A stretch of 64,000 bases of DNA from Desulfurococcus sp. (GCA_026626905.1 JAPNUX010000001.1:62001-126000), one strand, 5' to 3'. Shown: positions 5,419 to 12,949, numbered from the stretch's first letter. Made by a program: numbers and translations. The notes: a model not told the origin generated them from the sequence alone.

Positions 5419-5621
5419 AAAATTTACCACTAAAGGGGGCAGAACTAATCCAGGCTACTACATTACAGCTCTCTAGAATACTGGTACCTTCCGAAAAGTC
5501 TAAGGCCACTACTCTCTAAGCTTGCATCCTGCAGGATTTCACGCTGACCTCTATGAAGCCTCCTGTATTCTACTTAATCCTGTATTCTTATCAACAGGTG
5601 GTTGAAGCTGCAGGTAGAATT

Positions 5622-5973
5622 CTAGACTATTCTACGGGATTTCTTAAGCCACCAGCTGTAGGGTAGTTTACTCAACCTCTCTTTACTAACTACGTGTAAA
5701 TCAATCATGAATGCAATGCTACCCAGCTTATCCTCTAGTATCCTAGATAAAAGTACATGGGTTTCGCGCTCACTAAGATTGCCTGGGATAGCGACCAGCA
5801 TGTCTAGGTCGCTTGCACCTGTAACTCTAACCTTCTAGTATGCTACCGAACACGTAGACTTCTACATCTGGTATGACCTCCTTTAAAATATGTGCGTCAG
5901 TATACGATAATCTCTCCCGGCTACCTAGCACGTACCGCCGTCTAGACAACCATTCTCCAAGATCTCTCGACAA
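5622..5973 (-). pseudogene. Frameshifted MNT-type nucleotidyltransferase (antitoxin of a HEPN/MNT pair)
   Basis: Starting from TTG 5973 the minus strand encodes a typical small nucleotidyltransferase N-terminus (SRDLGEWLSRRRYVLG...). It reaches the catalytic loop as VYVFGSILEG and then hits TAG near 5831. One frame over, the protein continues exactly where expected: VTGASDLDMLVAIPG, containing the metal-binding DLD, and runs to a stop at 5622. One indel therefore separates the GSxxxG half from the DxD half of the active site. The gene overlaps the end of the HEPN remnant in the usual operon order. No intact product is possible without frameshifting. Confidence 0.75.
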
Positions 5974-6309: not shown

Positions 6310-8196
6310 CTACTCTACACGGTCTAGTTTAACTATTACTGGTGGAGGTGGTGGTTCACTAGGCTGGCCTGTAACCTTTAATACAGCGGTACCCACTGGT
6401 AGAGAGGTTAGTGTCTTCTCGAGGAGCCCAGCATAATCAGCGTCTATTGAGCTGAGCCTCCTGGCGTCTCCCCCAGCAACCTGGAAGACTACTTTCACGC
6501 CTGTATTAGTGAGTAGTGATTGAATTAAGTGTTCTGGTAGCTGGCCTGTATGCTGGTGTGCTATGACTAGGTGCAGCCCGTACTTTCTCGCCTCACTTAA
6601 CACTGTGTCTAGGACTGGTAGATCCGAGATCAACTGGAACTCGTCGACTACGAGTAGCACGGGTGTCCTCGGCTCGCCTAGACGGGCTCTAGCTAGCACC
6701 TCATACCAAGTTTTCAATACTATTGTTGACGCTACTAGCCTGGCGAGCTCCTCCCCGAGGGATGCCTTGGGTGTAGAGAAGAGTGTTACTGAGGCGGGCT
6801 TCATGACATCTCTCATATCTATAGTTGTCCTGCTCGTCAGCTTCCTTAGGAGCTTGTCTCTAGCGTAGGGTTCAAGCCGTGAGAGCGCTGAGATCAATGA
6901 CTGCCTCTGCATGCTTCTCAGGACAGCCACCTGCCTTCTCCACTCAGCGTCCCGCGTGTCCTCTAGGCTGCTTCTTCCCTCATAGAGTTCTAGTATAGTG
7001 TTGTAGACGTCGGCCATTGTAGGCGAGTCGCTCTTAGAGTACAGGTACCGTAATACAACTCTAAGGAGGTAGCGGACGTTTACAGCTGTAGCCATGAGCT
7101 TCAAGATATCCTCGAATATACTGAGTAGTACGTCTATAGCTACTGTCACAGCATGCTCACGATCCCTATGCCTGGGCAGGTCGAGCGGGTTCAAGCCGAA
7201 TGGTGCTTCAAGAGGATCATAGAATCTCGCCTCAGGGATCATCGAGTGTAGCTCCCTCGACATATCCCCGTGGGGGTCTACTACTATGATGCCGACACTA
7301 CTATTCTCTCTAACCCTGTACACTAAGAGCTTTAGGAAGCTGGTTTTACCACTCCCTGTCTGCCCCACCACGTAGACATGTCTAGCAAGGTCTCCAAGGC
7401 TTAATCTAACCTCTCTACCTGAAGGCGTCACCCCTATCCTGAAGGAGCTCGAGCTTCTTAACGGTACTGTCTCCGGGAGTAGCCTGCCTCTCGCGAAGTC
7501 CACTGGATGGAAGCTTGGATCCGGGAGGACTATGGAATCGTAGATAGCGCTCCCGCATGCAACAGGTATACTCCTCGTGAAGAGTTTATCAAGGAATTTG
7601 AACTTAAAGGGTTCAAGTAAGCCTGGTAGAGCCTCGAAGCCAGCCTTCTTCTCAACCCACTTTAATCTTGTTGATGATGCAGCTGATACAGCATCTTCAG
7701 CCTCACTTACAGTACTCTCACTGCTAGCTGCAATAGTTATTCTTAGACTCCACACCCCTCTCCCAGCTCTCTCTAGAATCAAGCGTGCCTCAACCCCGCC
7801 ACCACGGCTCCCGCCTTCCAGCAGGCTACGGGCCTTCGAGCGGAAAATAGCGTCAAGCACATGATCTCTTGAAGCCCCAAGACAGAGGAGAACCGGGGGC
7901 TTCAGGGATACAGTCAAGCCGGGTGGATCAGTAATCACTGTATCCTTGAGCCAGAAGTCTCTTTCATCAGCCAGCCTGGCTTCCGCTACAAGTACCCTCT
8001 CCCCGAGAACCCCCTGCAGAATGCTGAAATCGTATCTTTCAACCACAGCGAGCTTCTGGAGAACTACTTCAGGCATTCTAGTCTCAATGATTACTTGAAG
8101 CCTTCCTCCAGTATTGAGAAGACAGTAGGTGAAGCGGTAGCCTAGGAGAGCCGGCTCAAACCTAGTGTTAATTCTAGGGAGAACCCGGTAGATCAA
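6310..8196 (-). CDS. HerA/VirD4-like ATPase of the Ced-like DNA-transfer locus (CedB-like)
   Basis: A 628-residue FtsK/HerA-superfamily motor. The N-terminal 240 residues form a non-ATPase region, followed by a HAS-barrel-like entry. Walker A GQTGSGKT is at 278-285, DPHGD at about 307-311 and Walker B VVDEF at 516-520. A sensor-type AHQHTGQLP follows at about 546-554. The 'DPHGD' and 'HQ...GQL' signatures are those of HerA/CedB and conjugative coupling ATPases, which pump DNA through a membrane pore. I see no transmembrane helix. The gene lies directly downstream (16 bp) of the pilin gene and is probably cotranscribed with it, divergent from a VirB4-like ATPase. The start is TTG at 8196. The role in DNA uptake is inferred from neighbours. 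Confidence 0.78.
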   Translation of the reverse strand: MIYRVLPRINTRFEPALLGYRFTYCLLNTGGRLQVIIETRMPEVVLQKLAVVERYDFSILQGVLGERVLVAEARLADERDFWLKDTVITDPPGLTVSLKPPVLLCLGASRDHVLDAIFRSKARSLLEGGSRGGGVEARLILERAGRGVWSLRITIAASSESTVSEAEDAVSAASSTRLKWVEKKAGFEALPGLLEPFKFKFLDKLFTRSIPVACGSAIYDSIVLPDPSFHPVDFARGRLLPETVPLRSSSSFRIGVTPSGREVRLSLGDLARHVYVVGQTGSGKTSFLKLLVYRVRENSSVGIIVVDPHGDMSRELHSMIPEARFYDPLEAPFGLNPLDLPRHRDREHAVTVAIDVLLSIFEDILKLMATAVNVRYLLRVVLRYLYSKSDSPTMADVYNTILELYEGRSSLEDTRDAEWRRQVAVLRSMQRQSLISALSRLEPYARDKLLRKLTSRTTIDMRDVMKPASVTLFSTPKASLGEELARLVASTIVLKTWYEVLARARLGEPRTPVLLVVDEFQLISDLPVLDTVLSEARKYGLHLVIAHQHTGQLPEHLIQSLLTNTGVKVVFQVAGGDARRLSSIDADYAGLLEKTLTSLPVGTAVLKVTGQPSEPPPPPVIVKLDRVE

Positions 8197-8212
8197 TCCG
8201 AGGGCACTCTCT

Positions 8213-8485
8213 TCAAGCTATGAGAGTAGAGATTAGGACCCATAGGAAGGCTAGTAGTAGTGCTCCAGCAATCGAGCCGGCTACCAGCTTCTTCCCCTCC
8301 TCTACATCACCTAACACTATCTTTAAGACACCGTAAACCCCGGCACCTACTACTGCAACCCATGCAAGCCAGTAGATCCAGCTGAGTATTCTCGCTACAG
8401 CCTCCCCGATCCCCGGCGGAGGCTCCGGTGTAATCGTGATGGGTATAGAGTTGAATAGTAGGTCAGCTGAAATTTTATGCTTCAC
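8213..8485 (-). CDS. VirB2/CedA1-like two-helix pilin
   Basis: A small membrane protein of about 90 residues. After a 30-residue N-terminal part with PEPPPG come two hydrophobic helices (roughly ILSWIYWLAWVAVVGAGVYG and GSIAGALLLAFLWVLISTL). They are separated by a short charged loop (GDVEEGKK). This helix-charged loop-helix pattern is that of VirB2/TrbC conjugative pilins and of the archaeal Ced/Ted pilins. No cleavable signal peptide is obvious. The start is placed at GTG 8485, six bases after GGTG; an ATG four codons earlier (8497) is possible. The divergent VirB4 gene has an almost identical start region (GGTGTTT-A-GTGAAG). Its position between two T4SS-type ATPases supports the call. Confidence 0.75.
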   Translation of the reverse strand: MKHKISADLLFNSIPITITPEPPPGIGEAVARILSWIYWLAWVAVVGAGVYGVLKIVLGDVEEGKKLVAGSIAGALLLAFLWVLISTLIA

Positions 8486-8765
8486 GTGAAACACCATGCT
8501 ACATGCTCGTTAAGGGGTTAAATAATGAGGAGTACTACTAGGGTAGCAGAGGCCGGTTCCCCATCCCCGGTGGCGCGAAGGCTACTATACGCCTGCCGAG
8601 CTCAAAGCTGCATTAGTGGATATGGGGCGTCATTCCTCCTCTGAACTGCTTCTCCAATGGTACTTTCTCACGCTTCCCAGACACCTGAATTCTCTCTGAG
8701 AGGCTAGAGTAGTCTAGTATAGCATGTTATTTGACACTTCCTCCCAGTAGCTAGTGGTGTTTAAA

Positions 8766-10556
8766 GTGAAGTATTCGTGGTGGAGGTTGAAGGGTATTCC
8801 ATTCTACTCCCTCAGTGATAGTGATAGAGATGTAGCTCTCAGCGAGTGGCTGGCAGTGATCTCCACGATTAAGAGCGGCGTAGTATTAGCGAGGAGGATT
8901 CCAGGCAGGTACAGGTACAAGGAGTTTGAGGTTGATACAGCTAGATACGAGTACTATGCTCTAGCCCCCATTGAAGTTGATCTCTCAAGGTTCTTTAATG
9001 CTGTAAGAGAAGAGCCCTTGAGACCCGGGGTTGCCGGGTTAAGAGGCTTCAAGACCCTAGTACTCGAGAGCGGGGAGCTTGCCCGAGTCTACGTAGCATT
9101 CAAGTTTCCTCTACAGCTGCCTGAAGGATTCACCTACATGCTTCTAGCAGCCTGTGATGAAGTCGCATTGGTATTCGAGAGAACCCCTAGGGCTAGAGCT
9201 CTCTCAATAGCGGACTCCCTGAGGAGGAGAAGAATGGGGATTATAGGCGTGAGGGAGGAGGCTAGTGTTGAGCTAGCAGGAGAACTCGCCTCGAGGGTTA
9301 TAGAGGGAGCAGAACTCTACGTATTCTACCTGCTCTTAGTTCTAAAGGCATCCAGCACGAAGGTACTGGAAGAGAGAACAGAAGTCTTGGAGAGCACGCT
9401 TAGAGGATACAGTATTGAAGCTGAAGCACCACCACTACAGCCTCAACTCTACAGCTTCAAGGCTCCCGGGTTCCCCCTGCAGTTAGAGGAGAGGTATACT
9501 GATACATTCTCGCTTAAACCATTCTTTCCTTTAATAGACGAGGAGTTAAACGATGAAGGCGGAGTCTTCCTCGGTGTTTCAAGCGCTCAGTCACCCGTGG
9601 TATTAGACTTGTGGAGCAAGCCTAACTTAAACTTCACTATTCTAGGTGTATCAGGTTCAGGTAAATCAATGACCGTGAAGATCTTCTTGAAGAGACTGCG
9701 CGAGCAGCATCCCAGCATAGTCTACATGGGCGTGGACCCTGAAAGCGAGTACACTAGGGTAGCAGGGGTTCTCAGGGCTACTGCAATCGAGATCAGGGAG
9801 GGCTGGAAGCTAGGCTTGGATCCAGTTAAACTAATGCTTGAAGGTGTACTGGAGCTAGGGCAGGTTGCAGACCTGCTCTCAGAGCTCTACGCTATACCCC
9901 CTAAGCTCCAGGGGTTACTGAGAAAGGAGCTCTTCTTGAAGGCTGAGCTAGCTGGAGGTATAGAGGGGTTTGTAGAAGCCATTGAGAACAAGCAGCTCAA
10001 GAGGCTTCTAGAGGGTGCAGTAGCACCTCCAGACGTCTACGTTTATGAAGGCACAGCCCCTGAAATAGGAGGTTCAGCTATCTTCGGCTTAGCAAGCGTG
10101 AGATCAAAGAGGCTTAAGGTACTTATAAGCGCGTTAATGAGTGCTTACGCATCGAATAAACTGCTCGCTGGAGTACGCAGGTCAGTTCTATTCATTGACG
10201 AAGCCTGGCTCTTCACTGAAACACCCTCAGTGATGAGCCTGGTTGAGAATGCTGCTAGAAGAGGGAGAAAGCATGGTGTAGCCTTCATATATGTCACGCA
10301 GAGAGCTGAGGATCTAGCTCGGACACCACAAGGCAGGAGTATTCTAGAGCAGTCAGCTACAGTGTTAATCTTAAGGCAGGAGCCGGAGGGTAGGGATACA
10401 GTTAAAACAGTATACAGGCTCAGCGAGACTGAAGCCGATATGCTGGTTAATGCTCCACCAGGCTACGGGCTCCTCAAGGCTGGAGATAAGAGGTTGTTCA
10501 CGAGGATACTGGCTACAAGAGAAGAGTTAGAGCTGTTTTCAACTAGAGGTGTCTAG
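8766..10556 (+). CDS. VirB4/TraC-like ATPase of the Ced-like DNA-transfer locus
   Basis: A protein of about 596 residues with the VirB4 plan: an N-terminal domain of about 270 residues, then a P-loop ATPase. Numbering from the upstream GTG 8754, Walker A GVSGSGKS is at about 298-305, 'GVDPESEY' follows at about 325, Walker B FIDEAW is at about 480-485, and YVTQRAED at about 513-520. The aromatic-rich Walker B and 'TQ' sensor are typical of VirB4/CagE, the ATPase that powers pilus assembly and DNA translocation. I chose GTG 8766, six bases after GGTG 8756-8759. The next gene, a two-helix membrane protein, starts next to its stop, as VirB3 sits beside VirB4. The gene is divergent from the pilin/HerA pair across a spacer of about 280 bp in which I see no other gene. 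Confidence 0.8.
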   Translation: MKYSWWRLKGIPFYSLSDSDRDVALSEWLAVISTIKSGVVLARRIPGRYRYKEFEVDTARYEYYALAPIEVDLSRFFNAVREEPLRPGVAGLRGFKTLVLESGELARVYVAFKFPLQLPEGFTYMLLAACDEVALVFERTPRARALSIADSLRRRRMGIIGVREEASVELAGELASRVIEGAELYVFYLLLVLKASSTKVLEERTEVLESTLRGYSIEAEAPPLQPQLYSFKAPGFPLQLEERYTDTFSLKPFFPLIDEELNDEGGVFLGVSSAQSPVVLDLWSKPNLNFTILGVSGSGKSMTVKIFLKRLREQHPSIVYMGVDPESEYTRVAGVLRATAIEIREGWKLGLDPVKLMLEGVLELGQVADLLSELYAIPPKLQGLLRKELFLKAELAGGIEGFVEAIENKQLKRLLEGAVAPPDVYVYEGTAPEIGGSAIFGLASVRSKRLKVLISALMSAYASNKLLAGVRRSVLFIDEAWLFTETPSVMSLVENAARRGRKHGVAFIYVTQRAEDLARTPQGRSILEQSATVLILRQEPEGRDTVKTVYRLSETEADMLVNAPPGYGLLKAGDKRLFTRILATREELELFSTRGV

Positions 10557-10557
10557 A

Positions 10558-10869
10558 GTGAAGGCTAGGCTACACCGCTTCGTGTACCTTGAGGAGGTAT
10601 CCCTGCTAGACGAGAGGCTGGTAGGCTCGCTAAGACTCAGGAGCACTCTACTTTTAGCCCCAGGTATAATACTACTGCACTCATGGCTTACTACGGGCTC
10701 GCTAGGCTCTCTTCTCTTAAGTATTATGCTAGCCTCCCTCGCTTTCCTTGATGCAGTATACCCTAGGAGAACCATGCCTCCACTTCAACTGCTAGCAGCA
10801 TACACCTACACAACCATTAAGCTACTATACTACCCGCCTACGAAAAGAACTCGAGTCCCTAAAGACTAA
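10558..10869 (+). CDS. Small two-helix membrane protein, VirB3-like candidate
   Basis: About 103 residues. A basic N-terminus is followed by two adjacent hydrophobic segments (roughly LRSTLLLAPGIILLHSWL and LGSLLLSIMLASLAFLDAVY), then a conserved-looking Pro/Tyr segment and a basic tail. Size, early paired helices and tight coupling to the VirB4-like gene match VirB3/TrbD, which anchors VirB4 to the membrane. No sequence motif proves this. The start is set at GTG 10558, two bases after the VirB4 stop and six after GGTG; GTG 10549 is an overlapping alternative. The 3' end overlaps the convergent GH130 gene by four bases. Confidence 0.55.
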   Translation: MKARLHRFVYLEEVSLLDERLVGSLRLRSTLLLAPGIILLHSWLTTGSLGSLLLSIMLASLAFLDAVYPRRTMPPLQLLAAYTYTTIKLLYYPPTKRTRVPKD

Positions 10870-11978
10870 CCAATCCTTCCCTTATCCAGCTCGCTCTCCA
10901 GCTCTGCTAGGTCTAATCTACCAAATCCAATCACGTAGTCGCCGGCACCGTAGGATATGTAGACTTCATCTTTCTCTCGGAGAACCCCGCAGGGGAAGAT
11001 CGTGTAGGGTCTATCACCGAATACCTCGTAGAGTTCCCTCGGCTCCATAATATACCTGGGTGTAACAGCTGTAACAGCCACCTCGCTTCCCCTCAACTCT
11101 AGTTCAATAGCGAGTAAACGGTAGGCTTTAAGCTCTCTATCAACTGCGTGCAGGAAGACTATAATCCTGCCATTAGAGGCTGTAATCGGAGGCGTTGACC
11201 ATCCAAGCTTCTCCTCCCACGGGGAGGGTTTTAAGACCTCTATGTTGTCAACGAGAGCTACCTCAAGCATACCACCTACCCTTGTGTAGCCTCCCTCCCT
11301 GCCCACTAGAAGGTAGTGTTGCTCGTCATCCATGTACGGCCGGTGGAAGAAGTACGTGTAGCCGTCATATTTGAATGCAAATGCATCTTTATTGCTTACT
11401 ACATTTCCATGCTGCTCCGCTGGCAGCTTATGCACATACATCTTCACCCACTCTCTACTACCAGCCTCCTTGACAGCTGTTACAGGTAGAGTTTTATCGA
11501 AGCGTGCTGACGGGTCGAGGTAGCTTACCGTTCTACCAGTATACGTCATGTACAGTTTACCATCGGTAAAGTATACTCTGGGATCCTCAGCACCCCATAA
11601 GTCATACCTTGTAGATGGGTATACTACTAGTCTAGCAGTATAACGATTGTAATTCACGCCCCCGTTCTCCAGGTCATCGAAGGGTACTGCTAGCTCGATA
11701 ATACCCGACACATACATGTAGTAGCCGCTTATGATCCTAGCGTAAACGTATATTTGCGAGCCCAGCTTAATCATCGAGGAATTAAAGACTGCAGGAGGAT
11801 GGATTACCGGGTAGTTATCCATGTAGACTCTATCAGGTGATATAATACCTATCCTCTTCACTATATCCCTGGTCTCGTTTACTCTTAAACTACTAGCTTC
11901 AGCTGAGCCTGCAGCAAGAGGGAATCGCATGCTAGTAGTATTACTCAATGAATAATCAACCTCCAGCCTGGCATCCAC
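10866..11978 (-). CDS. GH130-family glycoside phosphorylase or hydrolase
   Basis: A cytoplasmic five-bladed beta-propeller enzyme of 370 residues; GH130 members phosphorolyse or hydrolyse beta-mannosides. Landmarks visible in order are YARI (early blade), WGAEDPRV with the family's Glu-Asp-Pro-Arg, FFHRPY, STPP, FPCG, and a C-terminal SYGAGDYVIG matching the family's YGAAD signature. No signal peptide is present. Substrate cannot be told from sequence: mannosyl-glucose, mannobiose and mannogen-like substrates are all known. The first 35 residues look poorly conserved, so an internal start is possible. It stands alone, convergent with the VirB3-like gene. Confidence 0.75.
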   Translation of the reverse strand: MDARLEVDYSLSNTTSMRFPLAAGSAEASSLRVNETRDIVKRIGIISPDRVYMDNYPVIHPPAVFNSSMIKLGSQIYVYARIISGYYMYVSGIIELAVPFDDLENGGVNYNRYTARLVVYPSTRYDLWGAEDPRVYFTDGKLYMTYTGRTVSYLDPSARFDKTLPVTAVKEAGSREWVKMYVHKLPAEQHGNVVSNKDAFAFKYDGYTYFFHRPYMDDEQHYLLVGREGGYTRVGGMLEVALVDNIEVLKPSPWEEKLGWSTPPITASNGRIIVFLHAVDRELKAYRLLAIELELRGSEVAVTAVTPRYIMEPRELYEVFGDRPYTIFPCGVLREKDEVYISYGAGDYVIGFGRLDLAELESELDKGRIG

Positions 11979-12036
11979 TATGAAATATAGTCCACTCTAG
12001 CATTTAAAACCCAGTTAGCTTAGGCTCTCCGAGCAG

Positions 12037-12444
12037 CTACAGCTTATCTGGTAGTATTACCGTGGTATGCGTTCTTCTTAACCCTTTCTCTCTGAGTTCA
12101 CGGTATTTTTCCAATAGAATTTCATACTCGCTAGTTGAATACAGTACTATACCTTCCTCAATAGCGTTAACTATGATAGGGTTACCCTTGGAGAGCATTT
12201 GAACAGCTTCCTCCAGGGTATAGGGATGTGGTTCTATGTTAAGCACTGTGTCTCCTAGAAGGTCTAGAATGATCTTGATTCTATCAAGGTACTTGTTCTC
12301 AAAGTCAGCAATGATCAATAAATCGTAGTCACTCCACGGTACCCAGTCTCCGCGAGCTCTTGAACCAAATAATATTATCGCCTTCGGTTTAAATCTCTCC
12401 ACAAGCATTCCGACTATCTTTTGTAGTTCATCAGCTACTACCAT
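12037..12444 (-). CDS. MNT-type nucleotidyltransferase (antitoxin of HEPN/MNT pair)
   Basis: A 135-residue minimal nucleotidyltransferase with the catalytic signature FGSRARGDWVPWSDYDLLI, that is GSx10-13DxD, preceded by KAIILFG. In characterised HEPN/MNT modules this protein neutralises the HEPN RNase, in some cases by AMPylating it. It starts inside the end of the HEPN gene (14-bp overlap), so the two are translationally coupled. The C-terminal 50 residues form the usual helical tail. All active-site residues are present, in contrast with the broken paralogous locus at 5622-6227. Confidence 0.85.
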   Translation of the reverse strand: MVVADELQKIVGMLVERFKPKAIILFGSRARGDWVPWSDYDLLIIADFENKYLDRIKIILDLLGDTVLNIEPHPYTLEEAVQMLSKGNPIIVNAIEEGIVLYSTSEYEILLEKYRELREKGLRRTHTTVILPDKL

Positions 12445-12835
12445 CTAGCAATCTCCTGGCATATTCTACTATTTCTTCAGCAGCCTTAATAGCTCTACTT
12501 GATGTATCCTCATCGTAGGCTTCATGAGGAGCACCAGCTGGATGAGCATTCGGATACCTGGATGGAATGTAGTGTCTATCGAGTTCCCTAGCGTTATTTA
12601 GAAGGATAGGGTTGGCATTTTCCCTCCTTCTCTCAAAATACCTCTCGAGAAGTACGCGTACACTATGACCCCATGGAGCCTCATTCACACTATACAATAG
12701 TGCTTTAACAGCTTTTTCTGCTGCTTGATGAGAGTAGAATGCTGCGGCATTATATCTCCTCTCTCTGTGAAGTATTCTAGCTGTCTCTAAATCCCACAGT
12801 GCTTCATCAAGCCATCTGCGGGCCTCTTCCTTCAA
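12431..12835 (-). CDS. HEPN-domain protein (probable toxin RNase)
   Basis: About 134 residues, all helical, with the archaeal HEPN features AAAFYSHQAAEKAVKALL and a later YIPSRYPN. HEPN proteins of this class are ribonuclease toxins kept inactive by the adjacent MNT protein. The start is placed at TTG 12835, six bases after GGTG; a GTG three codons upstream overlaps the ribosome-binding site. The gene is first in a two-gene operon with MNT. I see no classic Rx4-6H catalytic motif, so RNase activity is inferred from the family and context. Confidence 0.8.
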   Translation of the reverse strand: MKEEARRWLDEALWDLETARILHRERRYNAAAFYSHQAAEKAVKALLYSVNEAPWGHSVRVLLERYFERRRENANPILLNNARELDRHYIPSRYPNAHPAGAPHEAYDEDTSSRAIKAAEEIVEYARRLLDGSS

Positions 12836-12949
12836 GCACGCCACCTCAATACAATAATTTTGTTGGTTTATGAGGGTTTACAAGATTCACCTTTAGACTA
12901 TTATTGAGGATACCATTATATTCTGCTAGTACTAGTGTTTGATCTATAT

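Follow-up and report, generated by a model that had tools for sequence, protein, structure and literature searches.

The locus at positions 6310-10869 of the analysed window, a stretch of 64,000 nucleotides from Desulfurococcus sp., probably represents the main part of a chromosomal type IV secretion system (T4SS) of the archaeal conjugative-plasmid lineage, which has been reduced to VirB2, VirB3, VirB4, VirB6 and VirD4 and kept for cell-to-cell DNA exchange, replacing the Ced system. The likeliest reading of the sequence data is that a conjugation machine was domesticated for the exchange of chromosomal DNA and displaced Ced in three families.

The locus comprises four open reading frames in two divergent arms, as the initial annotation had described; all are intact, with no internal stops. 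The minus-strand arm includes the gene of a VirB2-like pilin (8213-8497, 94 aa) and, after a gap of 16 bp, the downstream gene of a VirD4-type coupling ATPase (6310-8196, 628 aa); the two genes are probably co-transcribed. The plus-strand arm includes the gene of the VirB4 ATPase (8754-10556, 600 aa), the end of which is overlapped by 8 bp by the start of the gene encoding a VirB3/PrgI-like membrane protein (10549-10869, 106 aa). The intergenic space of 256 bp between the arms (8498-8753) is, judging by its position, presumed to be the promoter region. All three same-genus species carry intact genes, and the level of identity with the two other genomes is 63-70% for VirB4, 62-64% for the VirD4-like protein, 65-74% for the pilin and 44-47% for the VirB3-like protein. 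The nucleotide changes between the four genes and their counterparts in these two genomes are concentrated at codon position 3. The scanned flanks contain genes of phosphate transport/PhoU, FeoB, a tRNA-synthetase-like protein, GH57, GH130, GtrA and a permease, and include no integrase, relaxase or plasmid gene, in agreement with the earlier description of housekeeping neighbours and no nearby mobile-element gene. Neither a ParA/MinD nor a Rad50 gene was found in the locus and the scanned flanks. In the same window, genes of an MNT nucleotidyltransferase and a HEPN protein adjoin with a 14-bp overlap on the minus strand (12037-12844), arranged as in HEPN-MNT toxin-antitoxin pairs.

Both ATPases contain Walker A and Walker B motifs. 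The 628-aa protein (Walker A, GQTGSGKT, at residue 278) matches the Pfam families DUF87 (1e-15), TrwB_AAD_bind (5.5e-13), T4SS-DNA_transf (1.1e-9) and TraG-D_C (7.4e-8), all above the cut-off. It had been labelled HerA/CedB-like. The presence of a pilin and an ATPase in this arm is upheld, but the CedB model, whose cut-off is 700, reaches only 35 bits, and because three VirD4-related families exceed their cut-offs and CedB lies so far below, the protein would be better named a VirD4-type coupling protein. The CedD model gives 52 bits against a cut-off of 600. The VirD4 assignment is also consistent with homology to plasmid proteins: residues 193-625 are 50% identical to the ATPase of the Thermococcus plasmid pT33-3 and 35-41% identical to those of Sulfolobus conjugative plasmids. 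The second ATPase matches the NCBIfam families conju_CD1110 (2.5e-30) and TraC (1.3e-26) and the VirB4-like structure PDB 4ag5 (3.9e-22), and its full-length identity is 34-37% with pNOB8-type plasmids and 32% with pT33-3. For both ATPases, Sulfolobus pNOB8-type plasmids and the Thermococcus plasmid NZ_OX281346 provide the best annotated relatives. The initial annotation had pointed to best matches with HerA-NurA repair or defence systems as the evidence that would speak against it. The DUF87/HerA matches would fit a HerA-NurA repair or an anti-phage HerA system unrelated to transfer, but such matches are expected across the superfamily, the conjugation-specific NCBIfam families score above the HerA families for both ATPases, and pilin, VirB3-like and VirB6-like partners are present; the domain scores rule this explanation out, leaving it a negligible probability.

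The assignments of the smaller components are putative and follow from family-level matches, position and topology. Taken individually, the pilin and the VirB3-like protein of the window have no significant family match in Pfam or NCBIfam, and the profile of T4SS_pilin (PF18895) gives 0.13 with the window copy alone; it matches six of the 12 pilin family members, with a best value of 2e-5. The structure model of the pilin (mean pLDDT 78) contains two long helices at residues 30-62 and 65-93. The search of the PDB with this fold yielded no useful match, a two-helix hairpin being too simple, and the searches of PDB sequences with the profiles of the pilin and VirB3 families gave no T4SS match. 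The pilin shares homology with the N-terminal part of the VirB6-like protein described below and with the product of ORF 5562-5873 of plasmid pHVE14. For the VirB3-like family, PrgI (PF12666) is the commonest Pfam match (three of 15 members, best 0.025); compared with bacterial PrgI, the family profile aligns colinearly, with an E-value of 8.5e-4 and a probability of only 24%. The VirB3 model constructed without plasmid sequences matches, at 5.8e-9, the N-terminus of the protein that pHVE14 encodes divergently from virB4. These family-level matches and the position beside virB4 agree with the VirB4-like and VirB3-like pair proposed earlier for one of the arms.

The locus in the window has no VirB6-like gene, and the earlier suggestion that a CedA/VirB6-like protein may be encoded elsewhere is supported as regards a VirB6-like protein. 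Of the two same-genus genomes, G030 encodes a polytopic protein of 533 aa immediately past the VirD4-type gene; in G020 its equivalent lies one gene away. A 506-aa homologue, 60% identical to the former, is encoded on another contig of the genome under study (G000:C6:134173-135693) and is the candidate pore. It has eight predicted membrane segments, its PKD domain scores higher than the Pfam cut-off, and the pilin-like N-terminal stretch occurs twice in the protein. Neither sequence nor structure comparison linked it to known VirB6 proteins; the PDB profile search with the VirB6 family retrieved mainly PKD-type domains and no T4SS match, and the structure model (pLDDT 46) was too poor for a fold search. 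The gene is located among the genes of CTP synthase and thiamine biosynthesis, and thiamine genes also flank the G020 locus. All five T4SS genes are found together in G030 and G020 and are distributed over two contigs in the genome under study, the simplest reading being one ancestral locus that was split by rearrangement.

In archaeal conjugative plasmids only VirB4 and VirD4 have been recognisable, and no pilus protein or relaxase was known (PMC12857230, PMC9905601). An integrated Sulfolobus plasmid depends on its TraG (VirD4) protein for transfer (PMC9899855), and conjugation of pT33-3 has been reported to require VirB4 and VirD4 (PMC12857230). For the comparison with plasmids, the models of pilin, VirB3 and VirB6 were built from chromosomal loci only, leaving out integrated Sulfolobaceae plasmids. 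They match pHVE14 at 6e-5, 6e-9 and 3e-14, respectively, with the best reversed-sequence decoy at 0.87, and the VirB6 model also matches a VirB6-like protein of pT33-3 at 1e-15. Thus, pHVE14 (L144) contains candidate genes, annotated as hypothetical, for a VirB3 domain (2009-2920), a pilin (5562-5873) and a VirB6-like pore (6701-8551). The 103 kb replicon NZ_OX281346 (L142) of T. nautili 33-3, taken as the published pT33-3 since strain and size agree, contains candidates for the pilin (11752-12144), VirB3 (12188-12661) and VirB6 (6416-9217). The first two are small membrane proteins encoded directly upstream of virB4 in the order virB2-virB3-virB4; their scores, 0.06 for the pilin and 1.3 for VirB3, are not significant, and these candidates are proposed from motif and position.

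The likeness to pNOB8-type plasmids (pHVE14, the pNOB8 kind and integrated pM164) extends over the full length of VirB4 and the ATPase domain of VirD4/TraG and now includes the newly matched pilin, VirB3 domain and VirB6-like pore. These plasmids differ by a VirD4 of about 1,000 aa with a different N-terminus against 628 aa in the chromosomal protein, by a long extra C-terminal tail of the pHVE14 VirB3 domain, absent from the chromosomal VirB3-like protein, and by the possession of integrase and regulatory genes. The self-transmissible plasmid pT33-3 (PMC12857230) resembles the chromosomal system in VirD4, in VirB4 and in a VirB6-like protein, here of 933 aa, but its VirD4 and VirB6 are much larger. 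The likeness to the MPF-FATA T4SS of monoderm bacteria and Patescibacteria consists in a CD1110-type VirB4 encoded beside a putative PrgI/VirB3 gene, in VirD4 and, with regard to Patescibacteria, in a putative pilin of the T4SS_pilin family; relaxase, VirB1 and VirB8 were not recognised here, and VirB4 is only about 25% identical. When 337 kb of chromosomal-type loci were compared with the 28 proteins of pHVE14, only VirB2, VirB3, VirB4, VirB6, VirD4 and one TnpB were in common, and 174 kb of plasmid-like loci also matched the integrase, regulators and other plasmid genes. TnpB/IS605-family genes occur inside or beside several T4SS loci, both chromosomal and plasmid-like (for example, L070:9507-10718). 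The initial annotation had taken the missing relaxase as evidence of domestication, an argument that does not hold, as archaeal conjugative plasmids also have no recognised relaxase; stronger evidence is that every other plasmid gene has been lost and that the system and CedA nearly exclude each other.

The locus had originally been called Ced-like and conjugation-derived. The second part of this description is retained, the system being apparently domesticated as well; membership in Ced is ruled out by the CedA and CedB searches and by profile comparison. The genome-wide search for cedA that had been proposed was run, and CedA (NF041796) had no match at E<=1 in this genome and none at 0.01 in the two same-genus genomes, S. 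acidocaldarius scoring above the cut-off as a control. The best CedB (NF041017) result of the own-genome scan at E<=1 was 29 bits against the cut-off of 700. The profile of the VirB6-like protein does not align with CedA, nor that of the pilin with CedA or CedA1; 8dfu, a pilin of solved structure that a CedA1 relative matches at 1.2e-22, is missed by the pilin profile. Compared with Ced (CedA, CedA1, CedA2, CedB and CedD), the present system is likewise chromosomal, presumably has the same role and has a pilin that resembles the N-terminus of the pore, as with CedA1 and CedA (PMC9905601), but it possesses a VirB3-like protein, a full VirB4, VirD4 and a PKD domain in the pore.

The chromosomal system was found in 14 of 214 genomes of the order, belonging to three families (G000, G020, G030, G118 and G184; G012, G043, G067, G115 and G202; G008, G019, G048 and G057). 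CedA is present in 122 of 147 genomes of the order. It is absent from 11 of the 12 carriers of the chromosomal system among them versus 14 of the 135 others (Fisher p 4e-9) and, among genomes at least 90% complete, from nine of ten carriers versus three of 95 others (p 7e-10), these p values being inflated by shared ancestry, as the carriers come from about six genera in three families. Two further carriers beyond the 147 also have no CedA, which gives 13 of 14 (the best CedA match in G202, 0.026, is at noise level); the exception, G118, has both. CedA is present in all 17 genomes with a divergent VirB4 and in G124, where the chromosomal type is represented by no more than a fragment. CedB is absent from the genus of the second family that has the chromosomal system, and many others in this family have CedB and no chromosomal-type VirB4; the cut-off of the order-wide CedB scan was strict (1e-40), so a diverged CedB may be missed, a limit from which the own-genome scan is free. 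Evidence counter to replacement comes from G118, from G080, which has a pilus-linked VirB4 together with CedA, and from three near-complete same-family genomes (G101, G135 and G145) which have neither CedA nor a chromosomal-type VirB4.

In the trees, the VirD4 proteins of the chromosomal system group together in a single clade (support 99/99), and the clade of chromosomal VirB4 proteins (support 98/98) also includes G080. The VirD4 of G118 groups with that of G043 from another family, which suggests some horizontal transfer. This grouping, the occurrence of the system besides CedA in G118, the patchy distribution and the fact that the nearest relatives are mobile plasmids are what would be expected from a resident or decaying integrated conjugative element, still or recently self-mobile, with an incidental role in the host. 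This reading is unlikely, however: apart from one TnpB, neither an integrase nor any further pHVE14-type gene without a role in transfer is present in the 337 kb of chromosomal-type loci, the genes are intact throughout the three same-genus species, the VirB6 gene lies in a thiamine-gene context shared with the G020 locus, and plasmid-like copies coexist with CedA, which the chromosomal ones, G118 excepted, do not.

The complementary distribution of VirB4 and CedB/CedD, with VirB4 in Desulfurococcus, Fervidicoccales and Thermoproteales, was described in a 2025 study (PMC11868833), so VirB4 in Desulfurococcus was already known; the present analysis extends this to CedA and to the complete set of genes, separates the chromosomal system from plasmid copies and points to the lineage from which it came. 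The composition of the system, the displacement of CedA, the pilus linkage and the assignments of plasmid components appear to be new. The same study placed the VirB4/TedB proteins of these three groups in one VirB4 clade. The system could be a member of Ted (TedA, TedB and TedC), which would reach beyond Thermoproteales; Ted also consists of VirB2-, VirB4- and VirB6-like parts encoded on chromosomes without Ced, and its loci carry a "HerA-like helicase", which might be a VirD4. The loci of Ted are, however, described with ParA/MinD and Rad50 and without VirB3 or VirD4 (PMC9905601), and no ParA or Rad50 was found among the scanned neighbours here. Membership in Ted, from which the present system is set apart by published descriptions and not by sequences, seems unlikely. 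The broader proposition is evenly balanced, namely that this is an archaeal DNA-exchange system distinct from Ced and, by description only, from Ted, in which a plasmid was stripped to five transfer genes, joined to a type IV pilus and displaced Ced in several lineages, these five also being the long-missing core of conjugation in archaea, with a pilin for plasmids that had been described as having none.

Genes of a type IV pilus ATPase and platform protein are located near T4SS genes in G030, G020, G019, G043, G012 and G067. In the two same-genus genomes G030 and G020 they encode a T2SSE ATPase, an UpsF-like platform protein and a pilin with a class III signal peptide; in G019 the T4SS and pilus genes are all gathered in a single cluster spanning about 17 kb, parts of which are seen in G043, G012 and G067. 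About 120 kb away from the window locus, the genome under study has an operon of a T2SSE ATPase and an 8-TM platform protein (G000:C1:189258-192403). The UpsF model gives only 0.023 with the G030 homologue, and the operon is predicted to encode a type IV pilus, equivalence to Ups not being implied. In Sulfolobales, Ups pili are required for Ced DNA import (PMC11868833).

It may be suggested that the type IV pilus brings cells together, that VirB4, anchored by VirB3, would assemble a VirB2 pilus on the VirB6 pore, and that VirD4 would feed chromosomal DNA into the channel, the transferred DNA possibly being used in recombinational repair. A coupling ATPase of the VirD4 type is present here, unlike in the published Ced set, which makes a donor role plausible. 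T4SSs have repeatedly been converted to protein delivery, and the PKD domain of the VirB6-like pore could bind a partner cell, as might be expected if effectors or toxins rather than DNA were delivered into neighbouring cells. This is very unlikely, given that the nearest relatives are DNA-transferring plasmids, that its distribution points to a replacement of CedA, a DNA importer, and that no effector-like gene is present in the locus.

The chromosomal set suggests that archaeal cells swapped one domesticated conjugation machine for another, and such a swap would imply that cells benefit from preserving the exchange of DNA between them. It also provides concrete candidates for the pilin, VirB3 and pore of the plasmids, and the plasmids of Sulfolobus and Thermococcus are genetically tractable.

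Related loci were observed in other groups. The type IV pilus-linked VirB4/VirB3 locus of G080 (L075) belongs to another family; its genome has CedA and no VirD4 match, and no VirB6 match was found within the 20 kb examined. Two Archaeoglobaceae contigs (L097 and L098) encode VirB4 proteins of 38-39% identity with a VirB3-like neighbour and a pilus-kind secretion ATPase nearby, and L097 additionally contains VirD4 and VirB6-like genes.
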